This document shows, piece by piece, positions 14,005 through 60,039 of a stretch of 64,000 bases of DNA; the stretch's first letter is position 1; every line of letters begins with the position of its first letter. Source of the stretch: Biscogniauxia marginata. Lineage: Eukaryota > Ascomycota > Sordariomycetes > Xylariales > Xylariaceae. Both the position numbers and the translations under genes were made by a program. The notes below the pieces were generated by a model. It made no database searches. It was not told the DNA's origin and saw only the letters and a list, made by a program, of their open reading frames with translations. The stretch is from the NCBI GenBank assembly GCA_022695795.1, contig MU404072.1, positions 239,541-303,540 on the forward strand, read 5' to 3'.

Positions 14005-14157
14005 CTTTCGTTTAAAAGCTTATTAATTATTATTTTTTTACTTATTTCTTTTCTTGTTACCCTTTAATCTTAAGGGGCATACTTATCTTAGGACTGTTTC
14101 GACTAAAAATCCCTCCTCTTAAACCAATATCAAGCATTAATTAAAGAGCTATTAAAA
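14005..14157 (-). mobile_element. Chromovirus M, 5' leader and gag start (rest at 53071-60033)
   Basis: Minus-strand leader and first gag codons (MPPK-like start near 14080), lying inside the LTR 14158-14614. It stops at CTTTC, reverse complement GAAAG. The piece at 53071 begins GAAAG and continues the same gag sequence. Confidence 0.88.
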
Positions 14158-14614
14158 TGTAACGAATTTCCCTATGTATTCCTAATTAATTAACTTCACA
14201 AGTGAGTACGTACTAGGTTTTCTTGATTTAAAGGTAATAGTGGGTTAAGATTAGTTCAAGGATTTATAATGTTATGTTCGTTAGAGAGGTTTCAAGGTAC
14301 TCTCATTATAGTATTAAAGAGTGACTATAGTCTTAAATTAATAGTTAAGAAACTAAAATGAATAACTAAATACATAAGGAAATTCTAATTTACTTATACT
14401 CGTTCTTCCTCTTATATAATTAACTAAATAATTAAATCGTAAGTTACCCCACCCACTATTCACATATTTAATAAATAGTTGAATCGTAAGTTGCCCCACC
14501 CACTATTCACATATTCAGTGAATAGTTGAATCTTAGGTTGCCCCACCCACTATTCACATATTCGATGGGGTCACGTGCGTGGCACTCGTTTCCCACTTTA
14601 GGAGTCTCGTAACA
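14158..14614 (-). repeat. LTR, U3 type A (5' LTR of M), 457 bp
   Basis: TGTAACGA...GTAACA with three 47-bp units in its U3. Its mate is 59624-60033 (410 bp, two units). Outer flank ATAAA (14615-14619), reverse complement TTTAT, matches TTTAT at 60034-60038: the TSD of element M. Confidence 0.92.
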
Positions 14615-14624
14615 ATAAAACTAT

Positions 14625-15065
14625 TAACATGTCTTATAAGCAAGTAAGCCATATAAGCAAATAAGCTACTTGGTTTCCTATATAAAATCGACTTTTTTAA
14701 AAATTTATAACTTTACATATAAAAATCGTAAAAATTTTGGACCTTTTTTATTAGTTATATAATTATATAATTTAATTAAAAGTAAAATCGAAAGAATTAA
14801 TTTTAAAAAACGCGAAAAAAAAAACGCGTAAAAACTAAAATTAAAACAAAACGCACGAACTTTTTTACGTATTTTTTTATGTATTTCATTTTTATTTTTT
14901 TATTTTTACTTTTAATTAAACCTTATAATTATATAACTAAAAAAAAGGTCCAAAATTTTTACGATTTTTATATGTAAAGTTATGAATTTTTTAAAAAGTC
15001 GATTTTATATAAAAAATTAAGTGGCTCACTTGTTTGTGTGGCCCACTTACTTATAAGACACGTTA
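14625..15065. repeat. Palindromic (MITE-like) element, ~440 bp
   Basis: The left arm (about 14625-14795) and right arm (about 14900-15065) are near-perfect reverse complements, with ends TAACATGTCTTATAAGCAAG and CTTATAAGACACGTTA. The short centre is AT-rich and non-coding. The termini match those of the larger TIR family at 15066-15833 and 60535-61229, so it is probably a short internally deleted relative. No TSD could be recognised. Confidence 0.75.
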
Positions 15066-15833
15066 TTACTTTTTATATAAAAAATATATATACTTTTTTT
15101 TAACTTCGATATAAATTAAGTATTTTAAAAAGTTAAAACATTTATAATAACTCACGAAATATTATTATAATTTAATTTTATTATAAATAAAATTAAAAAG
15201 TATTAAAGAATTTTTTTTATAAATATTATAAATATTTATAATTAACTTATAAAAATTATTTTATTATTAATATATAAAATAACTTTATTACGAAATAAAA
15301 TTACTCTTTTTTAAGAAATAAATTATATTTTTAATAAATAATTATAAACAAAAAAAATTTAATATAAAAAAAGAAATAATTTTATAAGTTAAAAAGAATA
15401 ATATTACAATTAATAAAAAAAGGTTTTAAAAATAATAATTAAGTAAAAACAATAAAATATATATAATTAAATTAATTATAATACGTATATTTATATAACA
15501 AATAAAAATGCGTTTAATAATATAATAAATAAAAAAGTATTTAATAATTTAAAATTTAAAAAGTTATAATTAATTTTTTATTTTAATTTTAAAAGGTTTT
15601 AACTTAAAAAATATAATAAATTAATTAATTTAAATTACATGTTAAAAATTAAAAATTTAATACAAAAAAAGTATTTAGTTTTTAAAGCGTAAAACTAAAA
15701 AAGACGATTTAAATAATAGTAATTATTAATTAATTTTAATATTATATAAATATTTTTTAATAATTAAAACTATAAAAGTTATAAAAACTAGTTTACTTGC
15801 TTATATGGTCTACTCGCTTATAAAACACGTTAT
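15066..15833 (+). repeat. Long terminal inverted repeat, copy 1
   Basis: AT-rich, RIP-mutated, non-coding. Aligns over most of its length, with indels, in the same orientation to 60535-61229. Both end in TTACTTGCTTAT-like and CTTATAA(A/G)ACACGTTAT sequence. If the inferred inversion is undone, the two copies face each other as terminal inverted repeats of one element interrupted by M. Confidence 0.7.
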
Positions 15834-16262
15834 TTTTATATTTTAAAGTTAAATAACTAATAAGAAATATAAAGTGTTATAAATATGAGGGTATAGCTAT
15901 TAATCATTTCTTGGCTTTTCTTAGCAGGAAAAAACTTTTGGTAAGGACATCCGTACTTATAAATGAATTCTAAATAGGAGGGTCGATTCAGGGCTAAGCA
16001 GCCGGCGCCAAGACCTTTGTGAGATCCACAGCGGACAGGGGATCGGCCCCGCCAAAAACCGGATCCACCCGCAACTACCTACAACAAACAGCTTTGGTCG
16101 AGTACGTACCTTTTATTCCGTACAACTTCACAGCTTCAACATTTTCTACCTAGCCCCTTACTTACTGTATGCAGCGCACTCACCACTGCTGAAGACGCCA
16201 CCGGTATCGTTCCTCTTTTCGAAACCTACGTGATCCCGACTATCCACAATCCCCGGCCCACG
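15834..16262. promoter_or_regulatory. RIP border and upstream region of the DUF4604 gene
   Basis: Base composition changes abruptly near 15,900, from almost pure A/T to about equal. The 300 bp before the DUF4604 start codon is pyrimidine-rich in places and holds no recognisable gene. It is the likely promoter; no specific element can be named. Confidence 0.4.
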
Positions 16263-16874
16263 ATGTCGCAGAAGATAAACTCCAAGAACCTCTCTTATAG
16301 CTCGGAGCTCCCTCCTTTCCTCGCGCGCCTCCGAGGACAAGGAGGACGATATGGCGATAACGACGGCCCGGACCAGATCCTCGCGGCGCGCCGACGGCCT
16401 GCGGGGCGGCACGTGCGCACAGCGAGCGAGGAGGCAGAAGATGCGCCGATAGTGGTGGACGAAGAGGGGAACGTCGTGGACCTGCGGGAGAAGGACGTGG
16501 ACGGTTTGGCGCAAGAGAAGGAGGAGGAGAAAGATAGCGATGAAAAAGAGAAGGAAGAGAGCAGGAAGAGAGAGACAGAAAAAGCAAGGGTGGCTAGTAT
16601 AGGCGCAAGCAAGAAGCGCAAAGTAGGCCGCCTCATCGGCGGCGATGCGGACGACGACAAGGGAGATAGCAATATCGCGAAGGCGGCGAGGGATGTACGT
16701 CGTATTCTGAACACCGAGGCCGATGCGGACAGCGCCAGACAGGGCGCGAATAAGAAAAAATATGAGAAAACAACGGACGCGGCTACCACCACCACGACAG
16801 GGAAGTCAAAAATAACGGCGAACAAGAAGAAGGCAAAGAAAATCAAGCTCAGCTTCGGAGACGACGCGGATTGA
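16263..16874 (+). CDS. DUF4604 (KIAA1143-like) family protein, 203 aa
   Basis: Single-exon frame. The N-terminus MSQKINSKNLSY, followed by LPPFLARLRGQ, is the hallmark of the DUF4604 family (animal member KIAA1143). I place the start at 16263 because it begins that motif; an in-frame ATG at 16230 would add 11 residues. After a conserved stretch with DAPIVVDEEGNVVD (about residues 60-73) the rest is highly charged and low complexity: Lys/Glu repeats (about 80-105), a basic KKRK patch that could act as a nuclear signal, Lys-rich tracts and the C-terminus LSFGDDAD. Function is not established; a nuclear role is a guess from composition. First normal-GC gene after the retroelement block. Confidence 0.85.
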   Translation: MSQKINSKNLSYSSELPPFLARLRGQGGRYGDNDGPDQILAARRRPAGRHVRTASEEAEDAPIVVDEEGNVVDLREKDVDGLAQEKEEEKDSDEKEKEESRKRETEKARVASIGASKKRKVGRLIGGDADDDKGDSNIAKAARDVRRILNTEADADSARQGANKKKYEKTTDAATTTTTGKSKITANKKKAKKIKLSFGDDAD

Positions 16875-18114
16875 ACGAGTACCTAGGTGAAAATGGCTCC
16901 TGAGGGGGATCCCACGAATCAGGTTATCTTGAGGCCCGTGCAGAGAAGCGCGGATAGATGCATATATATGGTGGTAGCCAGGGTTGCGGTCTACATAGCC
17001 GGCCTACGTGCTGATTCGCATACTTGCGTACACGAGACCCAAGTCCGCTGTCCTCTGCCTGTTGTTCGCTGCTAGCTGCGCCGCTGTCGTTGTTGCTGTA
17101 CTTTGTGGAATCCAACCAACCACTCAGCGTCGAGGACTACTGCGGCCAAACCTCAGGAAGGGAGAGAAGAGCATTCATGAAGACCTCATACGTGGGGTAA
17201 ATAGAGGCGGTGCTGTGCAGGGTCTCAATTTCGGTAGTTACTTATTGCCAGCCAGCCCATCCAAATGACCCTAACATGTTTTATATACAGTCACGCTTGT
17301 CACGGTAGTTGCCTTGCATGGCGTCGTGCTCTGAGCAAATGATGCGGACGGATGATAGATGTCCACACATAGTTTCAGATAGGAGATCAAGAGGATGCTC
17401 ATTGATCACCATCCTCTCTTTTCCTCGTTATAATATTACTTAGTAAATCAGTGCGCGTGCTGTCTTATATGTGCCGCTATGATAACCTTCGGAGTCATCT
17501 CGATACATGGAATACATTATTCAGCAAGTTTAAGTCTTTTTTCCCCTAATTACTTTATGCCACTAATACAACATAAGAGTATCCATAATGAGGTCGGCGC
17601 TCATCTTTAAAGGGGTCGTACTTCACATGTTTCGAAAGACTAGGGCTACGAAACCCGCTAATATATCTGTATATGACGCCTCTGTTGAAAATAGACGCAG
17701 GTTAAAAGTACCTATTCCAGAGGTTGCTTGTATTATAGAAGATGTTTTTAGCTGTAGTGCGAGGTATCCTGTATTCGTAGCCATAGGTATGGTATGTATA
17801 CCAGCCAGTCAGGGCTGTCCTCCAATATATCTGGTACTTCTAGTACCTCTGGAGATGCCTATGAATATCTCTATATTCTAGCATTCTCCATGTCCATCTA
17901 GATAGACTAGCATAGTTGCAACACCTTAACAATAGCTCACCATCCCTAGCCATTTTATATCAAATGCTGATCTAGACTACAAGACTCATTCGGGTTTCTT
18001 TGCAGATTCGGCAGGCTTGGTTTTAGTCTCCGTGGCTGATGTGGTGGGATATTAAGCTTGTTGACGTTGCTGACAATTCTTCAGCACCTTATCCTGTGAC
18101 AAGAGTTAACTAGG
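16875..18114. other. Intergenic, no supported gene
   Basis: Normal-GC sequence. Open frames at 17008-17268 (hydrophobic N-terminus) and 17588-17881 (97 codons) show no recognised domain, and no codon or splice pattern convinced me. Confidence 0.5.
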
Positions 18115-18395
18115 TCACTGAATATGATATGGGAAACATACAACGTCAAGTTCCTCGAAAGTTCTGATGATGTAGACATCAGGACGTATCTTAACGAAAT
18201 ATTAGTCCTGCAGCCGACAACTAGAAACGAAACCGAGTAACTTACCACTAAGTGAAATTTATGATTTCCAAGCATCGCAATCAACACTTCCAATATCTCT
18301 CGTGGGTCGGCAAGGCTCGTGTCAATCTCTGTAGTGTGAAAGTTCTCCCCAAGGACATACCTTACTGAAGCGCTTGGATAAGAAGAAGAAGACAT
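18115..18395 (-). CDS. Small two-exon hypothetical protein, 74 aa
   Basis: I do not recognise the family. Exon 1 is 18395-18246 (50 codons, MSSSSYPSASVRYVLGENFH...). A 56-bp intron, 18245-18190, has GTAAGT donor, CTAAT branch site 9 bases before the acceptor, and AAG acceptor. Exon 2 is 18189-18115 (24 codons and TGA). Splicing is phase 0. It joins an acidic amphipathic segment (about residues 25-50, DTSLADPREILEVLIAMLG) to IRPDVYIIRTFEELDVV. Reading through the intron instead gives a 104-codon frame with a poorer sequence. No signal peptide. It could be a complete small protein or the remnant of a larger gene. Confidence 0.45.
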
Positions 18396-19566
18396 GGAGA
18401 TCGTGTTATGGTGGTAGGTGGTATGCAGAGCGAATTTAACACGAGCAAGACGTAAATATTATACTTGAGGATGATTGTGACGAAGTCTCTAACTGCCGAG
18501 GAATTTATCTCGGGAAAGCTTGTCAAATTTATATTACTTCGACAGTAAGCTTTATGAAGCACGGTCTCCTGTGCATGGGCCTCTAGGAATGGAACAAACT
18601 TGAATTGAAACCTGTTGAAAGGTCGATCGAGGACCCAAGGGAGGGAAGTGAGGGTTTTTACATTTTAGTTGGCACGTACACGACTTGTCAGCAGACGCCT
18701 TGGGGGCTTCGTTGCAAAGCATAGTTGCTTCATGTTATGGGGTTGCACAAAGTCCCTGAAAAAGAGTCACGTTATAAGCACATGGGATCTTGATGTGCCA
18801 TACTTTGGTGTTAGTTAGAAACCCCACCAGTGGGAAGAAACGGCAATATTATGAACATAAAAGTAGCTACTGCCTAGGAAAACTGCACTAACTGAACGGT
18901 GTATGAGGGTGAAGGTTAGGCATTTTAACCATTAAAGGCTGACACAACTAAGCCACGCTGTATGGAGGTAAAACAGCAGAGCCATTAACTGCTCGGCCTT
19001 TGTCGTAGTTTTGCCCTGCAGGTATAAAGAGGATACTTAAGACAGAAATGGTTAGGAACCGTGCTGCGGTATTATAAATCAAGGAGTACTAGTAATGTTA
19101 TAAATGTGGTTTTTGCGCAGAGTACTAGAACTACAGCCACCTGAGGCACCGTGACTTATACCTGCTGACAGTCTTCATGTTCCCTACAAGGTACGCATCA
19201 TTTTGTACCCCTGATCCCTTACACCGAAGCACAGTTCCTAACATAAATGGAACAACATATTTGACTAAACCCCAAAGTGGCAGTGCATCTTAGGACTTGC
19301 TTCCTATCTCTCCTGGTTAATAATGTAATTTTATGGCATACACCAAATTAGAGGCTCAGTCGATGCATATGAACCTTGGTTATTGTAGGCCTCCCAACAG
19401 TGCACTGGAGCTGTATATAACACGAAATTGTTTCCAGAACACATAAGCGTTACTGGATATTATGAATGATGAAACAATAAATCTTATGACTTGGAGTCTC
19501 TTTAATCTTATCAACCTTATATTTGCATAATTTGGGGACACACAGCTTTTCCACTCTGGTAACGTG
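18396..19566. other. Intergenic, no supported gene
   Basis: Normal-GC sequence upstream of the first kinase gene. Only short, unconvincing frames on either strand. It probably holds the promoter of the kinase gene in its right part. Confidence 0.5.
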
Positions 19567-22393
19567 ATGGATCTCCACAACAAGCAGACTGATAATGTAA
19601 GTATGTTTATTTGGCCTCAGCCCAGCATATCATTATACAAGAGAAGGGATCGCCGGCGTCGAATTAACAAAGCACAGCAGGTTATCCATAAACATCATGA
19701 TAAAAACAGTCAGACATCTGACTCGCCTTCCATTGACACAAATATTGCTACGCTATATAGTAGTGCTATTAATGGTGATGATAGTGCTGGGCTACTAGAC
19801 TGCGAAGGTAATCGAGGGCGGGGAGAGTCATCAGCTGAAGACCTGAAAAGTGAGAGATACCTCCACCTAAAACCAACACTATTAACGAAAATAGGATTAC
19901 CATCAAACGCTTCCCCAAGCTTAAGTGGACACGGCCCAGGGGTTGATAATGAGAATTTACACAACAATGACCTCCAAACTGAGCTAAATCATGCCCTCGA
20001 ACATTCTCCAGAGGGAAACAAAGTATTCTTGCCCCTGGATAGCTTGGATCACCTTGTAAGCTTCTCAAGGGTTAAGCATGAATTGGAGAGATTGCAGATG
20101 AAGTCCAAGCCCCGAGAACAATTGTGCCAATATGCGCGACTCATTGTGCCTCAAGCATCGGACGATGCTAATAAAAAACCACGACGGAGAATATTTGCGA
20201 TTCTCGCCTTGTTGGGCAAGAGCAAGTTGAAATTCATTTATGACTTCATAGATGAGGGCATCCATGACGGTGATCTGCCGTTCATTTTCGATCGATCAAC
20301 GCGTGTGTGCATGGCGCGAAGAAAGCAAGATGGAGACCTCGAAGATATAAAATTCTGCAGGGATCATCCGGAGTGGGAAACTCACTTGCACGAGTCGTTC
20401 TGCCGGTGCCAATGGTGGCTTCTTGCTCCATGCTTCAAGTTAAGCACGAGTTCGAGACCGAAAGTTATGCACCATGACCTGGAATACCGTATGGTTCTAC
20501 CAATAACCCGGTCAGACAGAAGTCTTGAATCATTCCGTGGTGGAGGCTTCGGTAACGTGTGGAAGGTGGAGTTCCATCAAGCCCATATCGATCCGCCGGT
20601 GAGTGCTCATCCTTCAGTATCACGGAGTTGTTCTGTGGAATGGACTCTCATAACGGGGACTAACATGATATGTAGCATGCCGAATGCCAACCGCAGTCTT
20701 TCGCAATCAAACAACTTCATCGTGATGGCCAAACGGCGTTTGACAAAGAAGTCATACCATTGAAGCGATTAAGTGATCATGATCATCCCCATCTAGTCAA
20801 GCTATTGCTGACATATTCACATCGCAATCGATACTACTTGTTGTTTCCATGGGCTCATGGTGGTAACTTACTGGATCTTTGGAAAAGATTCGAGTCAAGA
20901 CCGTTCCCGGGAGAGCGCCGTGTGGCATATTGGATGGCTAGACAGACTCTTGGTATTAGCGAAGGCCTAAGCAAAATACACACCTGCAAAACCGGACCGC
21001 CTAGTTTGAATGGACTAAGCCTCATGGAAACAAAAAGGATCTTCGGGAGGCATGGTGATCTCAAGCCAGAAAACATCCTCTGCTTCCTACAAGATATCCA
21101 CGACGAGCCGGAAGATAACTTTTTGGGTGTTTTGAAAATATCTGATTTTGGGCTCACCAGTTTTCACAGACATGAAACCCGATCAGTCGATAACCCTAAG
21201 AACCTTTCTTGTACTTTCACGTACCGCGCTCCAGAATATGACGTTGCAAAAAATGTTTCTCAAAGCTACGATATATGGACACTGGGATGCGTTCTTCTTG
21301 AGTTTGTCACTTGGTATCTCCTCGGATGGCAGGGAATAAGAGCATTCCAAGAAGCTCGCCTGCAGGAGGGGGGCACTTGTATTCCAAGAGACGCATTCTT
21401 TGCGTTTCATCCAGAAGGCGCGAGAACGACTCAGTGTGTAAGAGAAAGGTTGTCGGTATTTCAGGTAAGTAGTGTGTCGGCATAACATACACCTTGAGAG
21501 TTATACTGAAATTTCTATGTTAGCATTTCAACTACCTACGCCAGCATGATGGATGCAGCGACTTGGTCCACGACTTCCTGGATCTTATCCAGGACCAGAT
21601 GCTCAGGGTGGGCCGTAGTAACAGGTCAAATATCGGTGACGTGGTAAAAAGTCTCAAAAGCATCTATGAAAAGTGTAAGGGAGACGAGGACTATTATTCC
21701 AATATGAGCAAAAAGGGCCCTAGGCGGAGTAAGACAAACCTGTCAGAGCTGGAAGCAGAGAAGGTCGAATTATCAAGAAGGATGAAAACGAAGATGTACA
21801 CCGAACAATCTAATTCTAGATTTGTCGAACGAAAGTTGAGTACGTCCGATGGTAAAGATACAAGGCTAGACTCGACAAGATACCTCGCTACCAAGGATGA
21901 CGAATCACTAAAACAGTTAGTGCATAAAGAAGCCGTGGACGGAACGCTCTCCGGGATTCTTCGACGCTCACAGCCTACCATACGGCAGGGTTTCCATAGT
22001 CACTCTCGAGATGACATAAGCATAGATAGCCACATGCGGATAGAGGCAGAGACCCCTCAAACATCCAGCAAGAAAAAGTTGGAAGAGTCTGTTAATCATG
22101 CAAGATTTACCGGTACCGGTATGATAAGAGCTAAGACTGATCCTGGGATTCACCACAATCTCGACATAGTCACTGCACCTGGTCAATTTGATGGAAAAGG
22201 CTCATTTAAAGTTAGGTCTGATGGTAAAGGGATTAAACGGGACCAGAACGACAAGGGTAATGATGAAAGGTGCCCTCTTTTAGAACACAGCGAGGCAAAA
22301 ATAGGGAGAGAATATAGGTCCACGAGGTTGGAAAGGGGTCACACGTTTGCAAGTTTGTTGTCAGCTGTGTTCTGCGGGTGTTATGGAAGGTGA
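19567..22393 (+). CDS. Protein kinase-like protein with fungal N-terminal domain, 896 aa (paralog 1)
   Basis: Three exons: 19567-20598, 20676-21464 and 21524-22393. Both introns are phase 0 (77 and 59 bp, GTGAGT...TAG with CTAAC branch, and GTAAGT...TAG). Residues 1-320: a low-complexity start, then a helical region (about 165-300) shared in outline with the neighbour gene. Kinase domain: Gly loop GGGFGNV at 325-331, beta-3 Lys356 in AIKQL, catalytic loop HGDLKPEN at 470-477 (HRD with Arg replaced by Gly), DFG at 501-503, APE at 529-531, DIWTLGC helix. The kinase ends near residue 680. The remaining ~200 residues are charged, probably disordered, ending CGCYGR. Catalytic Lys, Asp and DFG are all present, so it may be active. 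Substrate and pathway unknown. The ATG at 19567 is the first in frame; an upstream exon cannot be excluded. Confidence 0.82.
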
Positions 22394-24212
22394 TGCCCTG
22401 GTAAAGGGGCCGGAGTAATACATATCATTGCACACGCTGTTGAATTAGTAAAAAATGTGTTGTACGCCTTAACTTATTTAGTGAGGCTTATATTTAAACA
22501 TACACCACGCCTGTCCTTTCGTTTTTCCCTCCCTTCTTTGCTTCCTCTCCCACCTTTGGAACATACAAGGCGCGGAAAAGGGCTAGATAATTGGGGTACT
22601 ACAGCGTTGTTATTGCTCTGTATCATTACACAGGCAACAATAAAGTTAAAAGCAATGAGGAGGCGCAAATAAAAACTGCACAGAGAGCTGCAGAGCTGAC
22701 CCCCTGAAAGCCAATGACCAGATATATTTTCGCCACACAAAGACGACCCCAGTAGGAATAAATTACCGCGCCGTAGGGACCGAAAATACGCCTTACGGCA
22801 CAGGAAAGCTCATTCGCACACATTACGTGCTATCCGAGCACTCACTACTGCAGTATATCCGATGGCGCAATGATTGCTCAACATCCATGAGGCTGCCAGG
22901 ACCGCCTCACTCGGAAAAGGGTGTATAGTTGCTGTAATAAGCATTTCCTTCATTTAACCTCACCTAGGTTGCATCTCTTCCGCTGCATATGCTTACCAGG
23001 ACTTCAATATAACATGATTCATTTGTCTTTAGATGGGAAAACATGATGCATCTGAGATGTGGTACCGATATAGGGACTAGGACTAATAGATATTGTCAAA
23101 TAGGTCCGACTGGTTGTTGAAAATTTACACTGCATACGTACAAAACACGAACCATACAAGCCTCTGGTTTTCGGTGAGTTGACGCCTTTGAGCTGACCAC
23201 CAATTCATTTTTGGGCAGTGGAGGGTGGTGGCTTGCATACATCATTGCAGTATCACATGAAGAAAAATAGTAGGCAGCATCGTCTCTGGTACTCGGCATT
23301 CAAGAGAACTAGGCGTAGTTTAGACATTAGCTACTTTCACTATGCACTCAATATGCATAGAGGTAGTTACGTAGTTTTTGCGCGAAGGATTATAATTCTA
23401 GGTAGGTACTTGGGAGATATTGCCTTTTACATGCTAACAGCCCCTTTGTTCCACTCGGTGAAGTGTACATCCTTTGTACCGATTAATCTACATACACCGC
23501 AACCCCCTACCTACTCCTGATAGGTACTGTTGTGCCGATCATGCCATTAGGAGGTTCCGTGGAAATTCCTCTGAAAAATAGCACTGGGTTAGGAAATAAC
23601 CTTCAAGTATGAGTATAAATATATCGAATAAAATAAGATATCAGAGGTACTTATTGTACAGACTCAAAGATTTAGTGTCTCAATATGCCCTTTGAGCCTC
23701 AATAACCTATGTACCCCCAAGTAAGGGTGACTATGTTGTACGTACACTTATAATATGTGACTACTCAAGCTAGTCGTACAAGCTGTAAGGGAGTTAGCTA
23801 TACGAAATCTGATATGATGTATGCCTGCTTGATTTCTTTTTACACATTGAACGGGCGCCTGGAAGGTATGCGATGAACACCCTTGGTCATACAAAAGCTA
23901 GACGCCTGAGCACTGGGAAATTCCTATAGGCCTTCTATGTTAGACAAGAGAAGTGAGGCTGTATTGATTCCCAACCGAGCCTCATTCAGTACTATTGCCA
24001 AGCTATGCTATGACTCGACTATTATATAAAGATCATAGAATGGCACTGCTAGAGATAGAATAATTTTTGGGCATAGCTTAACGAGGATATATATCCTCAG
24101 CACCTTATATATTTACTCTATCTACCTACTCATTGGCATTACACAATTGTCGGTGGTCCTGTCCACAGTTGCCCCATTATACTATTCCTGGGCAACGATA
24201 TACCCCCAAGTA
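22394..24212. other. Intergenic, no supported gene
   Basis: Spacer between the two kinase paralogs. Open frames at 22457-22672 and 23218-23520 have no recognisable domain or splice support. The stretch just before 24213 is the likely promoter of the second kinase gene. Confidence 0.5.
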
Positions 24213-26095
24213 ATGAGCGATTCTTTCATGATGGACCAACCTCCCCCAGAGAAAGACCATACCAAAATCCTGGAGGATACACTGAATCAGAAACTGAGGA
24301 AGAACAAAGATCATGTTTCTTACCTGCCGCCTAACGAAATCCGAGAACTTCTAAACAAGGATATGATCACTAAGGCGTTTTGTGACGAATCAAGCGAGGT
24401 CATCAACTCCATATTGAAGCACCATGTCATCCTCCTTGCAGTTCTTACGATGATGTCAAAACCAAAGGACATCCTCCAGTTTAAGGATGACATCTCTGAT
24501 AAGGATTTGCCATTGGAACCTATACTTCAGAATACCCGGGTTTCAGCGTTTCTAAAGGACAAGGTCAAACTTAAACGCTTTGATGAATGGTCCCTCATTG
24601 AGAGGGATTCATTCCATTATTGGCAAAAACGATTTAACGTTCCCCTTCTAGATTTGGCGGATGGGTCTATTGCCCGACACTATGACTTCGACGAGTTGAC
24701 TACCCTCCCTTGGCTTGAGCCGGAAATGGGTTCGTCTACAGATTCACCATCACTACCCCAGGATTATTATGGTGGATTTGGCACGGTATCAATTATTGGC
24801 ATTGATCCGAAATGTCACAAATTTTACCCTGTTTTCAAAGAGGTGAGATGATATTCTTACAATAGGGGAGGAACTCAATACCGACAAGAGACTGACCTGT
24901 GATGATTATGGATAGCTCGAGCTCAAGACAGAGACTTTTGCCTTGAAAGTCTTGAATAAAAAAGATTTCGCGAATGACGAGAAACGATATCAACACGAGG
25001 TCGAGCAACTCAAGCGCTTTAATGGCAAGGCTAATCCTCATCTCGTGACTCTTTTGGCCTCGTACACATTCGGCCGGAATAATTATTCCTTTCTTTTCCC
25101 TTGCGCGGATTGCACTCTTGAAGATTTCTGGCGTAAGAACGAGCCCGAAAGAAATGCCGAGTCCATTAAATGGATCTCTAGTCAGCTCCTCGGTATTATA
25201 CGTGCTGTTGAGGTCATCCATGAGCCTAAGCACTTGCACGCGAGAGAAGATGAGAAGCGATACGGTCGTCATGGAGACATCAAGCCAGACAATATTCTCT
25301 GCTACGGTGTTAAGGGTAGTTCACATAAGAGGTTAGTAGTGACCGACCTGGGCTTGTCATCCATTCATCGTTACGATAGCCGGACATACAAGCCCGAAGA
25401 GGGGAAACGTATCCCTCCAAACTACCGCCCCCCTGAATGTGATGAAAAAATTGATAAAGGTGAAGTGTCGAGGAACTTTGACATTTGGACGCTTGGGTGC
25501 CTCTTCATGGAACAATTAGTTTGGTTACTCGGGGGGGATGGGTGGCTACAGGAGTTTCAACAAGATAGAACGACTCGGCATATCCTGGGATTTCGAGACA
25601 TCTTCTACAACATATGCGCCAAGGAGGATTACCAAGGCCAATTCCCAGAGAATGGCAAAGTTGTGTTTCAGTTGAAGCCGGAGGTCGTACGAGTAAGTAG
25701 TTTGTCCATCCCGCCTCAAAGTACGGAAATGACGCTAAAACCGCACCTAGTGGTTTGGTAAGATATACGATCATGAACAATGCTCCGAGTTCATTCATGA
25801 TGTTTGCAAAACCATCGAGAATGACATGCTTCTTGTAATCGATAGAAAGGACAACCGGCCCACGGATGGGACGGGGAACCGGACCCAAATAGATGAGTTG
25901 GCGAAGAAGTTTGAAGCATTTAGCACGCGATGCTTGAATGATGAAGAATACTGCTTGGAAAAGCACCAAAAGAAGGAGACCCCCCTGATGAAGCGGGGAG
26001 CTGAGTGGGAGCTTTCTAAAAAAGCTAGGGATCAGATTAGGGAAAATAAGACTCGTCTGCCGGTCATGATCCCAGTGAATCATGATCCTTGGTAG
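24213..26095 (+). CDS. Protein kinase-like protein, 579 aa (paralog 2)
   Basis: Three exons: 24213-24842, 24916-25692 and 25763-26095. Introns are phase 0 (73 and 70 bp; GTGAGA...TAG with a CTGAC branch, and GTAAGT...AAG), at the same two places in the protein as in the paralog at 19567-22393. The N-terminal ~180 residues are a helical region without a named domain. Kinase domain: GGFGTV at 187-192, beta-3 Lys221 in FALKVL, HGDIKPDN at 329-336, DLG at 354-356 in place of DFG, PPE at 382-384 in place of APE, then FDIWTLGC. Lys and both Asp are kept, so activity is possible but uncertain. The start is the first ATG after in-frame sequence lacking one. It lacks the long tail of paralog 1, ending 60-70 residues past the common region. 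Confidence 0.83.
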
Positions 26096-33564: not shown

Positions 33565-33850
33565 CCTCTATAGGGGTGGTCAATGCACCCAGGGTTTAAA
33601 TGCAATTTTTCAGTAGCTACACCAGATTCTCTAGATCATTAGAATTATAACTACGTTTATTTCCTTTTAGTTTACTTTATCCATTACATTATATAGTAAG
33701 AGCTACAAGATTCGAACCTACGCGGTTTCTCATTGCGGCACACAAATATATTCATTGCGGTACACACTTATTTAACACACTCGTTTGATTTATTACGCAT
33801 ATCTTGGCATCTCTATATATGTCGACTAAATACGAAGATTTGCAATTAAG
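33565..33850. repeat. Short interspersed repeat, less mutated copy, with B-box-like motif
   Basis: Contains GGTTTAAATGCAATTTTTCAG (in part), TATATGTCGACTAAATACGAAG and other stretches found again, RIP-mutated, at 34905-35279. On the minus strand GGTTCGAATC (33708-33717) is a good tRNA B-box/T-loop motif. No full cloverleaf could be folded by eye, so a tRNA-derived SINE-like repeat is more likely than a tRNA gene. Confidence 0.6.
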
Positions 33851-34262
33851 AAATTCCTATAAATTCACATATTATTTTACAAATTCCGGAAATGCCTTAA
33901 AATTTTTAAAAATTCTCGGTTAATCTCGAAGATTTTATTATTTCGTTTTGTCTCATCTCGTCTTAAATCTTACTAAAAAACCGAGTTTATATATAATATT
34001 ATTAAATTTAAAATGTTTTTTAAATAATAAAAATAAAAATATAAAAGTCGAGATAAATAAGATATAAATATTAATAAGTTTTCATTTTATATAGTTTTAT
34101 ATAAATTTAGTTTAAATTTATTATAAAAGTTTAAAAATTTAAAAAGTTATAATAAGATTTCGAGAAATAAAAACGGATTTATTATAAAATTTTTATAAGT
34201 ATTATAATAAACGTTTATAACGAGTTATTTAAAGAGTTTAACTATATATAAAAGTAGTTAAT
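33851..34262. other. AT-rich RIP-like DNA, no gene
   Basis: Composition drops to nearly pure A/T from about 33,900, marking the right border of the gene island. No ends or frames recognised. Confidence 0.5.
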
Positions 34263-35279: not shown

Positions 35280-35665
35280 TGTGACGAACCTCCCTGTGTG
35301 TTCCTAGTCAGCTGACTTCACAGGTGAGTACGTACTGGGTTTTCTTGTTTTAAAGGTAATAGTGGGTTAAGGCTGGTTTAAGAGATTCACTTTGTCTTGT
35401 TCGTTAAAGAGATTTTAAGGTACTTTTATTATAATATTAAGAAGTAATTATAGTTTTAGATTAATAGCTAAAAAATGAATAACTATATATATAAGAAACC
35501 TTGATTTATTTATACCTGTTTTTCTTTCTTTATTATTAAGTGAATTATTAATTTATTAATTTATTAAATCTTTAAACGGCGTTTTTTTTTAATTAAGCGC
35601 TTAATGGCGCTTTTCTAGTTACGTAATTCACACGTAATATATAAAAGAAAAAGAGGTTTATAATA
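35280..35665 (-). repeat. LTR of element K (3' LTR)
   Basis: TGTGACGAACC...ATAATA (CA end mutated to TA). The first ~75 bp is free of RIP changes and the rest is heavily mutated. The U3 half differs from types A-D. Left flank is GAAGA. Confidence 0.85.
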
Positions 35666-35767
35666 TTATTTTTCCCTTTCGAGAATCTTTATTCTTAAAA
35701 ATAAAAAAGATTATAATTAAAGTTTTTTTTTCCTTATTAATAAGTTTCTTTTTATTTCCTTTTTATT

Positions 35768-36140
35768 ATGTTTTATTATATTATAAAAGTTCGTAAAAAG
35801 AATTTTAAAGTTTCTCGTTATATTAATAAACAAGTTAAAAATAAACTAGCCTTAATAAATTTAGTTATTTTTAAAATCTTAAGAAGTAATATAATTAAAA
35901 TTATTAAATAGTTTTAAAAAATTAAAAACGAATTAAAAAAGGCTAAAATCCGTTTAAAGACCGCAATAAATCATGTTTATCATTTTCGTACTTAACGCCG
36001 TTTCTAATTTAAAAAGCTTAAAAAGATAATTATGCGTAATTTAAATTTTATCGAGAAGCTAAATCATGTCAAACGTGAAAAAGAGAAACAAAAACGTTTT
36101 ATTAAAAAATAATAACGTATAAAGAAATTATTATATTAAT
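35768..36140 (+). pseudogene. Accessory antisense ORF of K, decayed
   Basis: Begins MFYYIIKVRKKNFKVSR, clearly equivalent to MSHYIIKTRKETFNTSR in element D. It then continues as a Lys-rich, stop-interrupted frame. The Cys-rich middle seems shortened or lost. Confidence 0.65.
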
Positions 36141-37650
36141 TTAAATTCAAGTAAAATATACTTATTTTAACGGCTTTTTCTTTTTTTAATTTGTCTTTTT
36201 AAAATCTTGGTTTATATTTATAAATCTTTTTAAACGATCCGGGTTTTATTAATAAAAGTTTTTAAGCTTAATTATTAAGTTTTTTAAGTGCTTAAAAGGT
36301 TTTTAAGTGTTTTTTTAATAAATATTCTTTTTATTTAATTAAATATTATAATTAATTATTAATTCTTTTTAAGTTTAAAATCCTTTTTATTTCGTATTTA
36401 TTTAGTTTTTTTAATTTCGTTCTAGGTTTTTAACGAGACGTTTTTTAGTATTAATTTTAATAATGATATATAAAAAACTAAATATATTTTAGATTTTTTA
36501 ATAGTTTTAGTTTATAATTAATATTTAAAATGACTTTTTTTGATTTTATATAGTTTTAACTTCTTAAACTTAAGTTTTTTATTAAGTCGTTTTATTTTAA
36601 TTTAAGGCGTTTTTATTGTTATGCCTTATTATTAACGAAGTAAATAAATTATGTTTTTTTACGAATTAATTTTTTAATTAATTTTTAATTAAATTTTTAT
36701 TATTATTTTTTATTATTTTATTTTAAATAAATTATAATTCTTTTTATAATTATCGTTATATTACTTAGACCTTTTTAAATAATATCTTTACTTTTAAGGC
36801 TTTTATTTCGATTTTTAGTGCTTTCATAAGTTTAATTAATTATTTTTGAATTTCTACTTTTTAATTATATACTGCTTTATATAATAATATTTTTATGTCT
36901 TTGTTAACCGAGGTGTTATATACTATTTAAGTTACTAATAATAATTCTATTTAATTATTTATTTCTTAATTAATATAGTTTTTTAAATATTATTTTATTA
37001 TTTAGTTTAATTTCTTTATTTGTTTATTTATTTAAAGATAATACGTTATAAATAATTTTTATTTGATTTTTATTCGTTTTATTAAATTAATTTAAAATTT
37101 TAATATAAATAACTTATTTCTATTTAAAATAATACGTTTTAATAATCCATATTTATTAATATATTTTTTAAGAAATTAAAAGTTAATTATTTTATTATGC
37201 TTAACTCGTTAAACAATAAAAAGTAAATATATTTCGTAAGTTTATTAATAATTACTTATATATTATTATAAAGTACTTTTATAATAAGATCTTTTAACTT
37301 AAAAAGTTTTATTACGAACTTCTATATAATTATATGTCACGTTTTATTAAGTATCTAAGTTAGTTATAATAATTTATATAATTTATATCGTAATGCTTTA
37401 ACTTTATTATAAACGTTATAACTCTTTATAATTCTTTTAATTATTTGTCGCATTTTTAAAAAGTTAAATTTTTTTAAAGTCGTTTTAACGTTTTAAAAAT
37501 TCCTTAGTAATTATATAAAGGGTGTTTATAAAATTCCTTAACAAATTCGTTTTATACTTATTTTAATATGTAAATCTTTTCTTTATACGAAAAAAGTTCG
37601 TTATTAAATCTTTATTAAAACTATAATTACTTTTCTTTTTAATTATAACT

Positions 37651-38039
37651 TGTTACGACCTAACAAGGGTAAAAGGAATTAAGGTGGTCATGTGATCTAA
37701 GGTCACATGACTATAGAAGGGAGAATGCCAAGATTCTCAGTTGTTCTCTTGAGAATTTAAGAGAAGGTGGGTATAACTCCTTATAAAGGATAAAGTATAA
37801 GTAAATTAAAATTTCCTACGTATTTAGTCATTCATTTTTTTAGTTCTTTAGCTATTAATCTAAGATTATAGTCACTTTTTAATATTATAATGAAAATACC
37901 TTGAAACCTCTTTAACGAACATAACATTGTGAATTAATTGAATTAATCTTAACTTATTATTACTTTTAAATTAAGAAAACCTAATATGTACTTATTTATA
38001 AAGTTAGCTAACTAGGAATACATAAGGAAGTTTGTTACA
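37651..38039 (+). repeat. LTR, U3 type C (5' LTR of H), 389 bp
   Basis: TGTTACGACC...TGTTACA. One copy of the ~40-bp GAGAATGCCAAG unit, against three in 6724-7191. The leader and gag of H follow directly. Confidence 0.9.
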
Positions 38040-39794
38040 TTTTAATAGCTCCTTAATTAGTGCTTAACATTGGTTTAGGAGAAAGGGACCCTCGGTTGAA
38101 CCGTCCCAAGACAAATATACCCCTTAAAACCAAAAGGCAACAAGAAAAGAAATAAGTAAAAGAATAACAATTAATAAGCTTTTAAACGAAAGCTTTAAAT
38201 TCTTTTACGGTATAATAAAAAGGTTTAAAAGAATCAATATAAAAATTAATTATAATTATAACTAAAAAAGAGTTATAAAAGGACACCTCGAAAGCTTAAT
38301 AAAAAGAATTATTTAAGGAAGAAAAAGAGGAGAAAAAAGAAACACCTAAAAAAAAAACAAATAAATAAAACAACTCTTACCTCTTAAAAACAAGTAACTA
38401 AAACCACTTTTAAACGATAACGACCCTAATAACTCAAATAACGAAAATAATATAACTACTCCTAATATAAAGGGTTTTAAACTAATTACACCTAGTAAAT
38501 ATAATAAGTTAAGTAATTTAAAAGGATTTTTAATTTAAGCCGGAACCTATTTATGGTTTTATTATAAAACGATTACCACTAAGGAATAAAAGGTTTTTAT
38601 AGTATCTTAGCTCCTCGTCGAAACTGCTTTAACCTGGTTTTAACTAGTATTAAAAAATCATTTAAAAAACGGATTAAACGCCTAAAAAAACACAAAAAAA
38701 GTCTTTAAAAATTATAAGGAGTTTGAAAAATAACTTAGGTCTATATTCGGTAATTTAATCTTTAAGTAACAAGCCGAAGCTCGACTTTATAAACTACGAC
38801 AAAACAAGAAAACTTTAAACTACGTTATTAAGTTTAAGAAACTTGTAAGCTAATTATAACTACTTATTAAGAGCTTATATTACTTATTTTATTAAAAACT
38901 AAAAAACCATATAAAGAATAAGCTATATAAAATAAACCTATATAAAAAAAGGAATTTAGGAAAGTTTAATAACTACGTTATAATAGTAATTACTATTAAT
39001 AACGAAAACTTCGAACGGTACCTTGAAAAGAAAAAAACGGTATAACGAAAGAATGGCGATTAATTAAACAGAGGAAATTATAAAAGCGGTGCCGGAACTA
39101 GGAAAGGCATTAAAACCAAGTTAAACCTTATTAAAATTAACGTTGCTTAAAAGAAGCAAAAAAACAAAATTAATTAATTATTAAGTGTTTTAATTATAAA
39201 AAAAAAGATATTATAAAAACGAGTGCCGAAGTTTTAAGAAACAGGAACTAAGAATAAAAGGGATTTCTTAACTCGAGAAAAGAACTTTTAAAGCGAGAGT
39301 TCATTTCGAAAATAACAAGGAAGTAAACTAAGTATTTATTATTACTATTATCAAAGCAAAAAAAAACGAGGAAGTCTTTATAAAAAAAGTTTATAAATAT
39401 TATTAAGTTAACCATAAAAATTATTTAAAAAATAACTACTTATACCTAAGATATCTTACACTAAAATAAGCTAAATAAGGATATAACGAAAACGAACTAT
39501 TATACAAGTATAATAACTATAAACTAAGATATAACTTAAAAATTAAGTTAAATTATAATAAGCTATATTAAAGCCACTATAACGATAATAAGTATAAAAC
39601 CCACTAAGGAAAAAGTTAACATAATAATTTAAATTAAAGGTTTTACATAAATAATAATTATAATGTTTATTAAAACTTAAGGGAACATATATCGTTACAT
39701 TAAAGCTTTTACATTAATAACGCTTATTAAGTACATAAAAGTTCTAAGGATAAAGCTAATTATTATCCTTAAAAACTAGAAAGTAATGACATAA
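38040..39794 (+). mobile_element. Chromovirus H, leader and gag part
   Basis: The leader starts TTTTAATAGCTCC. Gag begins MPLKTKRQQEKK-like near 38115, and the knuckle near 39190 is mutated. The sequence breaks off at CATAA (39790-39794) against the LTR of X2. The continuation, CATAAAAGAAAA, is on the opposite strand at 11861 leftward. Confidence 0.87.
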
Positions 39795-40256
39795 TGTTAC
39801 GAACAAACTGTGTTGGAGGGATTTCTTACAAGGGTGTTGAGACACGGACCACGAATGTGAGTACAGGGCGGTCCTTTCTGGAACATAATAAGACGTCACG
39901 TGATGTGATCTAAATTACTCTCAAATCACATCAAATGGGATCTAAGTTGATCTTAGATCTAGATAAACTCTACTTATATAACAATTAATGTAAAAAGAGA
40001 ATATGTACTAAGAAGAATAAGTATAAAAAAAAGGGGATTTCTTATATATCTAGTTATTCGTTTTTTAACTATCAATTTAAGATTATAGTCACTTTTTAAT
40101 ATTATAATGAAAGTACTTTAAAACCTTTTTAATGAATATAACATTATAAATTAATTAAATTAATTTTAACTCATTATTACTTTTAAATCAAGAAAACCTA
40201 ATACGTACTCACTTATAAAGTCAACTAACTAGGAATATATAGAGAGGTTCGTCACA
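39795..40256 (+). repeat. LTR, U3 type B (5' LTR of X2), 462 bp
   Basis: TGTTACGAAC...GTCACA. Same length and U3 as 11862-12323 in the opposite orientation. Left flank CATAA. Confidence 0.93.
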
Positions 40257-43200
40257 TTTTAATAGCTCCTTAATTAATGTTTAACATTGGTTTAAAAAAA
40301 GGGACTTTTAATTAAATAATCCCAGGATAAGCATGCCCTTTAAAACCAAAGGGCAACAAAAAAAATAAGTAAAAGAACAATAATTAATAAGCTTTTAAAC
40401 GAAAGTTTCAAGTCCTTTTACGGTATAATAAAAAGGTTTAAAAGAATTAACACAAAAGTTTATTATAATTGCAGTTAAAAAAGAGTTATAAAAGGACATC
40501 TTAAAAGCTCAACAAGAAGAATTAATTAAAAAAGAAAAAAAGGAGGAGGAAAAAACACTTAAAAAAGAAAACAAATAAGCAAAACAACCTTTACCTCTTA
40601 AAAACAAGTAATTACCCTTAAACGATAACGACCTTAATAACTTAAACGACGAAAACAATATAATAACCCTCGATATAAAGAGTTTTAAACTTATTACACT
40701 TAATAGATATAATGAGTTAAGCGATTTAGAGGAATTTCTGATTTAAGTTAAAACTTATTTACGGTTTTATTATAAAACGATTATTATTAAGGAATAAAAG
40801 GTTTTCACGGTATTCTAACTTCTCGTTAAAACCGCCTTAACCTGGTTTTAACCAATGTTAAAAGATTATCTAGAAAACAGATTAAACGCTTAAAAAAATA
40901 TAAAAAAAGTTTTCAAGAATTATAAAGAGTTTAAAAAACAACTTAAATCTATATTTAGCAATTTAATCCTTAAGTAATAAGCCGAAGCTCGACTTTATAA
41001 ATTACAACAAAACAAAAAGGCTTTAAATTACGTTATTAAGTTTAAAAAACTCGTAAGCTAGTTATAATTACTTATTAAAAGCTTATACTACTTATTTTAT
41101 TAAAAATTAAAGAACTATATAAAAGATGAGTTATATAAAATAAACCTATATAAAGAAAGGAACCTAGGAAAGTTTAATAATTACGTTATAATGGCAATTA
41201 TTATTAATAACGAGAACTTTAAATAATACCTTAAAAAGAAAAAAACGGTATAACGAAAGAATAGCGATTAGCTAAAAAGAGGAAATTATAAAAGCGGTGC
41301 CGGAACCAGGAAAGGCATTAAAACTAAGTCAAACCCCATTAAAATTAACGTTATTTAAAAGGAATAAAAAAAACGAAATAAATTAACCATTAAATGTTTT
41401 AACTATAAAAAAAAGGACATTATAAAAACAAGTGCCGAAGTCCTAAAAAACAGGAACTAAAAATAAGAGAAATCCCTTAACCCGAGAAAAAAGTCGTTAA
41501 AGCAAGAGTTCAATTTAAAAACAACAAAGAAATAAATTAAGTATTTATTATTAGCACTATTAAAGCAAAAAAGATTAAAGAAACCTTTATAAAAAAAGTT
41601 TATAAATCTTATTAAGTTAACCGCAAAGATTATTTAAAGAATAATTACTCGTATTTAAAATATCTCACACTAAAACAAGCCAGATAAAGATATAACGAAA
41701 GCGAACTACTATACAAGTGCGATAACTATAAACTAAAATACAACTTAAAAATTAAGTCGAATCATAATGATTTACATTAAAGCCATTATAATAACAACAA
41801 ATATAAAACTTATTAAAGAAAAAGCCAATATAACAACTTAAATTAAAGGTTTTATATAAATAATAATTATAATGTTTATTAAGGCTTAAGAGAATATATA
41901 TTATTACATTAGAGCTTTTATATTAACGACATTTATTAAATATATAAAAGTTCTAAAAATGGAGCTAGTTACTATTTTTAAGAACTAAAAAGTAATAACA
42001 CAAAAGAAAATAAATGTATTTATAATAACGTCCCATAATGGCCACATTTTCCTTGAGCATGTTATCTTTACTCTAGTTCCAAAAAGAGCAACAAAGCAAT
42101 TACCAAAGATTATATATATTACACTTTGGTACCATGCGACGTATACGACTTACTTAAAACAGGTTTCGAAAAAAACGAGATTAAAGAAGAATTATAAAAA
42201 TTATAGAAAGGACTACATCTTTTATAATGGCTTAAAAAACGAACTAAATACGACATAAATTTATTCGGCTTTATAAAAAAACACTTAATAAAGTAATAAG
42301 CAAAAACACGTGTAACTAAACGGGGTTGTAAATAAATCATTAAAGCATACCTCAAAAAAAAAGGAAAACTCCTAGAAATTAATATAAACTTAAGAAAAAA
42401 CATCGAGATACCCCTAATAAATAAACTCAAAAATTATTCTTTTTATTCGAAAATAATTTAGAACTTTAAAAAATTCCGAGTTAATAAAATAGACTTAAAT
42501 TATAAAAAAGCTTTTAAAAAAGAATTAAAGTTTTAATATATAAAGTTTTATATAAAAAATAAACCTTTTACCCCCTATTACGTAAAAGGTAATTAAAAAG
42601 ACTATTTAAATAATAATTACTAAAAACACGTTTTTATAAAAGCCTAAAAATAAAAGGACATCCGGGCTATAGCAACTAAAAAAAAACTAAAAAAGAAGGG
42701 ACGTGAAAAACCAAAAAACGGCAAAGGCTCTCGCCAGTAAAGCAACGAGAAGCTATAAATAATAAGTTCTTATATAAGATCTAGTCAAGACTTAATAATA
42801 CTATTATAACTAGAGTTAAGTATAATGAAAAAAAGTATAAAGCCCTAATAAATTTAGGAGCAAATAAAAGTTATATCTTAATAAAAATAACTTAAAAAAA
42901 TAGAATATTATAGGTATATAAATAAAATCTATATAAGTTATAAAACTTTAAAAGAAACATATTTAATTACGAAAATGGTAAAGTATTAAAAGAAATAATT
43001 CCTTTCTTAGTAACTATTTAAAGGCATTTTAAACAAGTTATTTTTAACATTATATATATATTAAATCACAATATAATCTTGGGAATGAATTAACTTAAAA
43101 AAAGTAATCCACAAATAAATTTCGAGATAAACACGCTTTATTAAGATTAGAAACAAGAGGAGTCAACCATTACAAATTACGAGATAAATACCGCAAATAA

Positions 43201-45610
43201 CTCTAAAGAAACGAATACAAAAACGAAACATATTACTTATATAATTTAAGTAACTAAGCCTAAAAATCTAACGAAAAGAGTACCACGTAAGTACCTCCGT
43301 TTTCACAAATTGTTTAAAAATAAAACAAAAAAAGAATTATTAAAATATAACTAATAAAATTATTAAATTTACTTTAAAAAAGGAAAATAACTAAAATTAT
43401 TTTTAATATATCTTATAAATTAAAAAAAATAAAAAGCACTATAAAAAGGAATTTAAGAGGATCTTAATAAGAGATATATTCGAAAATTAGAATCCTCGTT
43501 AAAATACCCGGTAATTATAATACCTAAAGTCGATAAAAACGAGAAATAACATATCAATAAAAAAAGAAACCTAATATAATAACAAATAATCAATTATCGA
43601 CACCTTAATAAAATAACCAAGAAAAACGGACACTTATTACTATTAATGAAACTCATAAAAAAACAAATTAACAAAGCTTAAATCTTTATAGTATTAAACC
43701 TTCGTAATGAATATTATATAATTAAAATAACTAAAAAACACGAATAATATATAGCCTTTTAAACAATATATAGACATTATAAATACAAAGTTATGTTATT
43801 TAGACTTATTAACACACTCGCTACATTTTAACATATAATTATAATAGTTCTTCGTAAGTTTCTAAACAAATTTATATTTATTTACCTAGACGATATACTA
43901 ATTTACTTAAAAAACGAGAAGGAATATAAGGAATATATAGAGCAAGTGTTAAAAGCCCTAGAAAAGGCAAACCTACTTATTCATTCGACTAAAAGTAAAT
44001 AATATATCAAAAAACTAAACTATTTAGGGTTTATAATAAATCCAGAAGAAATCCACATTTAAAAAGGAAAAATAACAATAATTAAGAATTGGCTAAAACC
44101 TAAAAGTATTATAAACATACGCGCATTTCTTGGCTTTATTAATTATATTAAATAACTCATTAAAGATTTCGAGCGTATCGCTAAACCATTAACGGAATTA
44201 ATTACCTTAATAAAAACAAGAGAGGTTTTTCATTTCATTAAAAAAGCCAAATAGGCTTTTTAGTAGCTAAAAGAAGTTATAACTAGTAAAGTTATATATA
44301 AACTTTTAAACGAAAATAAAAAGAAACGACTAAGGATAAACGCCTTAAATTTCGCTATTAAAGTAGTCTTAGAGCAGCTGGAAAATAATAAGAAATAATA
44401 CCTAGTTACTTACCTATTTAAAGCACTATATAATGCTAAATTAAACTATTAAATTTATAACAAGGAACTATTAATAGTTATTAAAGCATTAAAAGAATAA
44501 AAATTATGGCTTAATAAAATCAAGGAACTTATTAACATTTATTTAAACCATAAAAACCTTACACGATTCATAATAACACAAACGCTTAACTAAAGACACA
44601 AGCGTTAAATGATTTTCTTATCCAAATTCAATTTTAGAATTTAACATATTAAGGGAAAGGAAAATATCTAAGCAAATCTTCTTAATAAAAGGGGAGATTA
44701 TAAATCAAAAATTAATAAAAAAAATGTTTAAATGTTCAAACAACAAAATGACGAATTAGTTATATTAACTTACATATAAATTAACATAAAAAACTAAAAA
44801 TAACGGTTTAAAGAAAATTATAGTTAAAAAGAAAAACAATTATAGTTTTAATAAGGATCTAGCGATAAACTTCTCTCGTATAAAGAAAAGGTATACGTAT
44901 TAAAACAAATATAGGACGAATTCGTTAAAGAATTTCACAAATATTCTCTATATAGCCACTAAAGGATTTTCAAAACAATAAAACGACTTTAAGAAAAATT
45001 CGACTTTTTAGAAATACGATAAATAATTAAAAGAATTATAAAGAATTACAACATTTATAATAAGGCTAAAGCATCACGACATAAACCATACGAATTATTA
45101 TAACTAACTTAGATACTTAATAAAGCATAGAATATAATTGTATAAGACTTCGTAATGAAACTCTTAAAATCAAAAGATCCTACTATAGAAGTACATTATA
45201 ACAGTATATAGGTAATCGTTAATAGACTCACAAAATACGCCTACTTTTTACTATTTAACGAATTAAGCATAGTAAAATAATTAACTTTCAATTTCTTAAA
45301 AAAGTATATTAATAAACATGGGTTATTAAAACGCGTTATTTTAAATAGAGATAAGTTGTTTATATTAAAATTTTGGATTAGCTTAATAAAACGAATAGAA
45401 ATTAAGTAAAAATTATTTATAACGTATTATCCTTAAACCGACGAATAAATAAAGAAATTAAACCAAATAATGAAACAATACTTACGAAGTTATGTTAACT
45501 GAGAAATAAATAACTAGGTAAAATTACTATTAATGGCCCAAATAATATATAATACTTCAATTAATAAAAACATAAAGATATCACCACATAAGGCAGTGTA
45601 CAGGTAAAAG
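39795..45610 (+). mobile_element. Chromovirus X2, 5' part (rest at 11862-13590)
   Basis: LTR, leader, gag (start near 40336), CCHC knuckle near 41395, protease-like ALINLGANKSY near 42845, RT with an intact YLDD (FIYLDD, 43877-43894), RNase H and the integrase N-terminal HxH and CxxC region. It stops in the integrase at AAAAG (45606-45610), where a type-D LTR lies. Together with 13590-11862 read in reverse it makes an element of about 7.5 kb. Many stops; inactive despite the preserved YLDD. Confidence 0.88.
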
Positions 45611-60033: not shown

Positions 60034-60039
60034 TTTATT

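Follow-up and report, generated by a model that had tools for sequence, protein, structure and literature searches.

Swapped target-site duplications point to a 31.6-kb inversion between oppositely oriented LTRs in Biscogniauxia marginata

Introduction

How do the two parts of one retrotransposon come to lie on opposite strands of the same contig? We address this question for a 64,000-nucleotide stretch of DNA from the fungus Biscogniauxia marginata (contig MU404072.1; C18:239541-303540), to which we refer as the window and whose first letter is position 1. Normal-GC sequence at ~16-34 kb, which holds a gene island, is flanked there on both sides by AT-rich retrotransposon blocks that bear marks of repeat-induced point mutation (RIP). 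In these blocks, four long terminal repeat (LTR) retrotransposons, here called X2, X1, Q and M, each occur as two parts on opposite strands of the assembly, and LTRs of a further type, D, stand at the two points where X2 sequence gives way to M sequence. The original prediction, made from the letters of the window, was that the segment between these points has been inverted through the D-type LTRs. Our analysis indicates that two D-type LTRs of opposite orientation have very probably recombined by homologous crossover and thereby inverted the ~31.6-kb segment between them (14005-45610).

Results

We compared the flanks of the two breakpoint insertions. The left breakpoint is occupied by a lone D-type LTR of 414 bp (13591-14004, plus strand) and the right one by a full-length element, D (45611-53070, minus strand), with LTRs at 45611-46024 (414 bp) and 52705-53070 (366 bp). 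The lone LTR and the LTRs of D align on opposite strands. The lone LTR is flanked by CTTTT (13586-13590, plus strand) and by CTTTC, which reads GAAAG on the minus strand (14005-14009); D is flanked by AAAAG on its X2 side (45606-45610, plus strand) and by GAAAG on its M side (53071-53075, plus strand). These flanks and element coordinates, as given in the original prediction, all proved correct on re-reading. Flipping 14005-45610 pairs 13586-13590 with 45606-45610 and 14005-14009 with 53071-53075, and the two D-type insertions thereby obtain exact target-site duplications (TSDs), CTTTT/CTTTT within X2 and GAAAG/GAAAG within M. The same flip provides X2 with TTATG/TTATG (11857-11861, plus strand, paired with CATAA at 39790-39794) and M with TTTAT/TTTAT (14615-14619, read on the minus strand, paired with 60034-60038). 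The TSDs of the breakpoint insertions have thus been exchanged, as expected of a transposable element-mediated inversion by ectopic recombination, and apart from the TSDs no base has been lost or gained at the breakpoints, the joins being free of gaps.

A fifth pair is provided by Q. Its 3' part lies at 35280-37651 on the minus strand, with the 3' LTR at 35280-35665, and an LTR of the same distinctive type is found at -618 to -165 (L010), outside the window. The outer flank of this 5' LTR is TCTTC, and that of the 3' LTR is GAAGA, its reverse complement. We read the two LTRs as the ends of one element, now ~36 kb apart and on opposite strands. The 5' LTR was beyond the reach of the original prediction, and the Q pair is independent of the evidence from which the inversion model was drawn. 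After the flip, five TSD pairs are exact, namely those of both D-type insertions, X2, M and Q.

Four 5-bp matches had been considered very unlikely to arise by chance. All four are indeed exact after the flip, but they vary in strength. Only one base separates AAAAG from GAAAG, and RIP favours G-to-A changes preceded by T; either mismatch, taken alone, could therefore represent a damaged ordinary TSD. The case for the inversion is carried by the continuity tests described below and by the TSD pairs of X2, M and Q.

The D-type family makes reliable 5-bp TSDs. The genome searched comprises 45.3 Mb in 229 contigs, each search scored the best 40 candidates, and our counts are among the matches listed. 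A search with the start of the D-type LTR gave 44 rows (4 short self-complementary matches, 2 of the window's own and 38 other copies), and this copy count is a lower bound, as D's left LTR is itself absent from the listing. The 38 other copies comprise 32 that form 16 full-length elements, 3 solo LTRs and 3 at contig ends. The TSDs are identical in 15 of the 16 full-length elements, with the exception (C7) matching at 4 of 5 bases, and in all 3 solo LTRs, the flanks of which were compared by eye. Of the 240 pairings between flanks of different elements, 2 matched exactly and 7 had no more than one mismatch; for random 5-mers from the AT blocks, the probability that two match is 0.005. The paired LTRs and 5-bp TSDs of the 16 elements, together with Pfam matches to gag (PF03732, 2.4e-5) and to the integrase zinc-binding domain (PF17921, 7.8e-12) in two stretches of D translated with X at stops, suggest that D is a Ty3/gypsy-like LTR retrotransposon.

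We next consider whether the interrupted elements continue across the flipped joins. The left part of X2 (11862-13590, minus strand) contains the 3' LTR (11862-12323) and the end of the integrase region, and its right part (39795-45610, plus strand) the 5' LTR (39795-40256) and the sequence from gag to integrase. The left part of M (14005-14614, minus strand) consists of an LTR (14158-14614) and 153 bp of internal sequence, and the right part (53071-60033, plus strand) ends in the other LTR (59624-60033). Upon flipping, position 13590 is followed in the integrase region of X2 by the reverse complement of 45605, and the alignment is gapless at this join for each of five other copies, namely X1, the Q fragment, D, M and E1, an element at the left edge of the window. 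The M join, from the reverse complement of 14010 to 53071, is likewise gapless against the four copies reaching across it, which are X1, X2, D and a copy at 63732; E1 was also supplied for this alignment and ends short of the join. Element sequence thus resumes at the next base at both breakpoints, as had been claimed, and the failure of integrase sequence to continue from 45610 to 13590, named at the outset as grounds for abandoning the inversion, is not what the five copies reveal. The D-type target site in M, previously put in the gag region, does lie in M, but ~150 bp into the internal region and upstream of the stretch that matches gag in Pfam. X1, with a left part at 7192-11861 (minus strand) and a right part at 37652-39794 (plus strand; 5' LTR 37652-38039), is also continuous and gapless across X2 after the flip. 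It adjoins the Q fragment at 37651/37652 and would be nested in Q.

Copies elsewhere in the genome allowed us to compare the assembled and the flipped joins directly. Sequences of 200 bp across the flipped X2 join and across the flipped M join were each spanned by 40 of the 40 matches listed. Searched with the same flanks, the join as assembled at the lone LTR was spanned by none of 40, and that at D again by none of 40. Insertion-free copies of the M target also exist elsewhere in the genome: the rejoined host flank of M is unbroken in 7 of the 87 matches listed, which start at base 1-3 and end at base 266-300. Of these, C49 matches best, with 90% identity across all 300 bases, and two more short matches (~65 bases) likewise cross the join. 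For the rejoined host flank of Q, 8 of 15 matches listed cross the join and extend 20 bases or more to either side (67-81% identity); one of the 8 is a second copy inside the window (33761-33987). Directly outside the left LTR of M, we also note an inverted repeat of ~460 bp (78%) at 14617-15073, perhaps belonging to the element that received the M insertion.

A conceptual alternative is that no inversion took place and that two ordinary insertions each had their TSD damaged by one RIP mutation. Each mismatch is indeed a single C-to-T/G-to-A base, that of D in the favoured TpG context, and 1 of the 16 control elements has a one-base TSD mismatch. Two damaged TSDs would nevertheless leave unexplained why both sites have X2 integrase sequence as one neighbour and M sequence as the other, offer no account of the TSDs of X2, M and Q, and are contradicted by the gapless joins after the flip and by the contrast of 0/40 with 40/40 spanning matches. 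We therefore regard this alternative as having practically no chance of being correct.

An assembly artefact could produce the same arrangement, if the 31.6-kb block had been misoriented by an assembler confusing two inverted LTR copies. A reciprocal misjoin would give equally swapped flanks and the same gene-order contrast. The assembly does break at D-type LTRs, since three contigs (C175, C200 and C48) share the same 94-95-bp LTR-start end, and runs of N are close by: 831-925, the only run inside the window, and 64001-72323, directly to its right, which may or may not be an assembly gap. The identical contig ends in turn suggest exact joining with k near 96. The longest identical run of the lone LTR is 43 bp with D's left LTR, 33 bp with its right LTR and at most 83 bp with any of 34 other D-type LTRs; such an assembler should therefore not cross between the lone LTR and D. 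Moreover, the word through which a reciprocal misjoin was made would reappear in each of its products, and no N is present at either breakpoint or inside 14005-45610. A k-mer misjoin is thus unlikely. The block could have been misplaced by other means, and to an artefact of any kind we assign a small probability.

The inversion should also be visible in gene order. The block contains the left end of M with its flank, the gene island, and the right parts of Q, X1 and X2. A DUF4604-domain (PF15377) open reading frame (ORF; 16023-16874, plus strand) marks the left end of the island, and CHS7, which encodes a chitin synthase export chaperone (PF12271) and is represented by two overlapping ORFs (31767-32851, minus strand), its right end; the island including CHS7 thus lies within the inverted block, as stated in the original prediction. 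The Chs7 fragment is 92% identical to its Biscogniauxia mediterranea counterpart over 87% of the query, and the DUF4604 protein, the window's own aside, is closest among the matches listed to proteins of B. mediterranea, Camillea tinctor and Biscogniauxia sp. FL1348. These affinities make it most likely that the fungus belongs to the Graphostromataceae (Xylariales). A KTR-type mannosyltransferase gene is located at ~78 kb, past the right AT block. The order is DUF4604-CHS7-KTR in the assembly and CHS7-DUF4604-KTR after the flip. In Xylaria bambusicola, the DUF4604 and KTR genes have consecutive locus tags (RRF57_003540 and RRF57_003541), as have the DUF4604 gene and CHS7 in Apiospora rasikravindrae (PG993_010109 and PG993_010110), and in Anthostomella pinea CHS7 and KTR are tagged Uu.00g078830 and Uu.00g078860. 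The tag numbers in these three species place DUF4604 between CHS7 and KTR, the order restored by the flip. The order in relatives would thus be CHS7-DUF4604-KTR, provided that tags follow position and that best hits are orthologues.

We also investigated how RIP has altered the LTRs. Over 16 LTR pairs, the C-to-T rates are 0.377 at CpA, 0.197 at CpT, 0.093 at CpG and 0.070 at CpC, and TpA/ApT is 1.26-1.57 in eight element stretches versus 0.91 in the gene island; the repeats thus carry the CpA-biased C-to-T transitions typical of RIP. In the 16 D-type elements (L013-L044), the outer start of the 5' LTR and the outer end of the 3' LTR are least changed and the inner halves more mutated, and RIP appears to be graded along the element ends; two solo D-type LTRs (C9 and C138) look little changed throughout. 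Between the lone LTR and D's left LTR we count 53 differences in 414 sites, all of them transitions. The terminal 124 bp on the outer side contain just 3 of these 53, and a crossover there would thus have been possible even after most RIP.

It is more difficult to assess which copies crossed. In the original prediction, D crossed through its left LTR with a solo LTR that lay in X2. An inversion between D-type LTRs is what we likewise propose, but this pairing is one of two equivalent histories: in the mirror history, a full element in X2 crossing with a solo LTR in M would yield the same final arrangement. Both insertions could also have been full-length, one later collapsing to a solo LTR. 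Such other partners would leave identical flanks. A 48-bp unit shared by the lone LTR and D's left LTR is absent from D's right LTR alone, as would be expected if the outer part of the latter came from another copy, and private loss of the unit accounts for the deletion equally well. The near-identical tract described above is the longest still common to the lone LTR and D's left LTR and mildly favours the pairing first proposed, an argument tempered by the general sparing of outer LTR ends from RIP. Given an inversion, we judge the chance that the partners were other than those first proposed to be substantial and somewhat below even. We considered the 48-bp unit as a marker of the crossing partner, and this use is weakened since the LTRs of M (457 versus 410 bp) and of Q likewise differ by a unit. 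In the LTR pairs of D (52705-53070), M (14158-14614 with 59624-60033) and Q (35280-35665), an internal stretch of ~47-70 bp differs, which is probably a repeat unit.

Two further elements in the left AT block have a composite appearance. X1 contains an M-type LTR at 7296-7652 (S1), and we considered X1 as a chimera with unlike LTRs. This was rejected, as S1 is a solo LTR with its own exact TSD, CTTTT/CTTTT, inside X1; it represents an ordinary insertion and serves as an internal control. E1 (-618 to 7191) has a 5' LTR of the Q type (flank TCTTC) and a 3' LTR of another type (6725-7191; flank GCTTG, inside X1). Its best identity to other copies, in 500-bp bins, is 77-82% to the left of ~1.8 kb and 80-90% to the right of it. 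E1 thus looks like a chimera, and its composition would be explained if elements in direct repeat had lost the sequence between them.

Discussion

Our findings are best accounted for by the following sequence of events. Before the inversion, the integrase region of X2 would have harboured one D-type LTR, at a CTTTT target, and M the other, at a GAAAG target close to its 5' end. A crossover between them would have swapped their outer flanks, and each insertion would hence now carry one TSD copy from each site. The inverted segment would have taken along the island from DUF4604 to CHS7, splitting the nested X2, X1 and Q on one side and M on the other, and RIP would then have made the two breakpoint LTRs different. 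The swapped TSDs, the opposite orientation of the LTRs, the continuity of the elements and the contiguous copies of the flipped joins are read directly from the sequence; that the crossover was homologous, where exactly it fell, which partner was full-length and when it happened relative to RIP is inference. The inversion accounts for every junction and predicts the fifth TSD pair, in Q; it is supported by the contiguous copies of the flipped joins and restores the gene order suggested by locus tags.

Several observations weigh against the inversion. Our evidence comes from one genome assembly of one strain. As the 3' end of X1 is missing, the TSD pair of X1 itself is no part of the evidence. 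No transversion or shared indel marks the origin of either half of the breakpoint LTRs, and their chimerism is without diagnostic marks because all differences are RIP-type transitions. A unit difference like the 48 bp between D's LTRs occurs in none of 16 control LTR pairs (one pair differs by a single base); it requires an extra step under either partner history, and neither predicts it. The expectation that gene order around CHS7 and DUF4604 in relatives would be un-inverted is supported by the tag numbers of the three species above, but in a fourth, Thermothelomyces myriococcoides, CHS7 (VTH82DRAFT_430) and DUF4604 (VTH82DRAFT_453) are 23 tags apart, with a contig of the same length listed for both; either the two genes are non-adjacent there or the tags are non-positional. 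A separate matter is the ~15 kb with kinase-like genes between CHS7 and DUF4604, for which the inversion gives no account. This interval (17000-31500) holds, among other ORFs, two kinase-like ones that have diverged to 34% identity, and its length, set beside the consecutive tags in A. rasikravindrae, indicates extra sequence in this lineage.

We compared our locus to other inversions associated with transposable elements. Ectopic recombination between inverted element copies is expected to leave four marks, which have been used for Galileo in Drosophila: the copies at the two breakpoints are inverted relative to each other, their TSDs are exchanged, no bases are lost or duplicated, and the copies are chimeric (PMC2775673). 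The first three are present at our locus: the LTRs are oppositely oriented, their TSDs are exchanged, and no bases are lost or duplicated. Inversion 2z3 of Drosophila buzzatii resembles ours in its opposite-orientation breakpoint copies, exchanged TSDs, nested insertions and lack of deletions or duplications, but Galileo is a DNA transposon, the non-inverted chromosomes were sequenced and chimeric copies were demonstrated, whereas here LTRs are involved, one chromosome is available and RIP would mask any chimerism (PMC2775673). In Leptosphaeria maculans 'brassicae', 30 intrachromosomal inversions are reported that distinguish two Leptosphaeria lineages; they measure 1.3-355 kb, with a median of 9.5 kb, and 70% have transposable elements at their borders (PMC4210507). 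This fungus is likewise an ascomycete with AT-rich transposable element blocks and inversions of similar size; the link to transposable elements described for it is closeness to the breakpoints, whereas here TSDs identify the crossing elements to the base (PMC4210507).

The mechanism that we propose is thus of a known kind, and what is unusual is how fully one genome documents the event. LTR retrotransposons form solo LTRs by LTR-LTR recombination within one family. There, direct copies recombine and a deletion results; here the copies are inverted and the outcome is an inversion, with LTRs of one family involved in both cases. Inversions are often assigned to transposons from mere nearness to a breakpoint, whereas here the event is recorded to the base. 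The nested insertions serve as barcodes, with five TSD pairs showing which sequences once adjoined, and no second strain is needed to recover the earlier order.

Tentatively, the crossover may date from a short interval that followed a burst of D-type elements and preceded the next RIP rounds, when the LTRs had yet to diverge; RIP would then have locked the inversion in place by rendering the copies too dissimilar for another crossover. We consider this timing possible rather than probable. Reading swapped TSDs in this way could be extended to whole AT-rich fungal genomes, where inversions could be counted, ordered and timed relative to RIP. If the timing suggested here is true, transposon bursts in RIP-active fungi would open brief windows for rearrangement, which are closed by genome defence.

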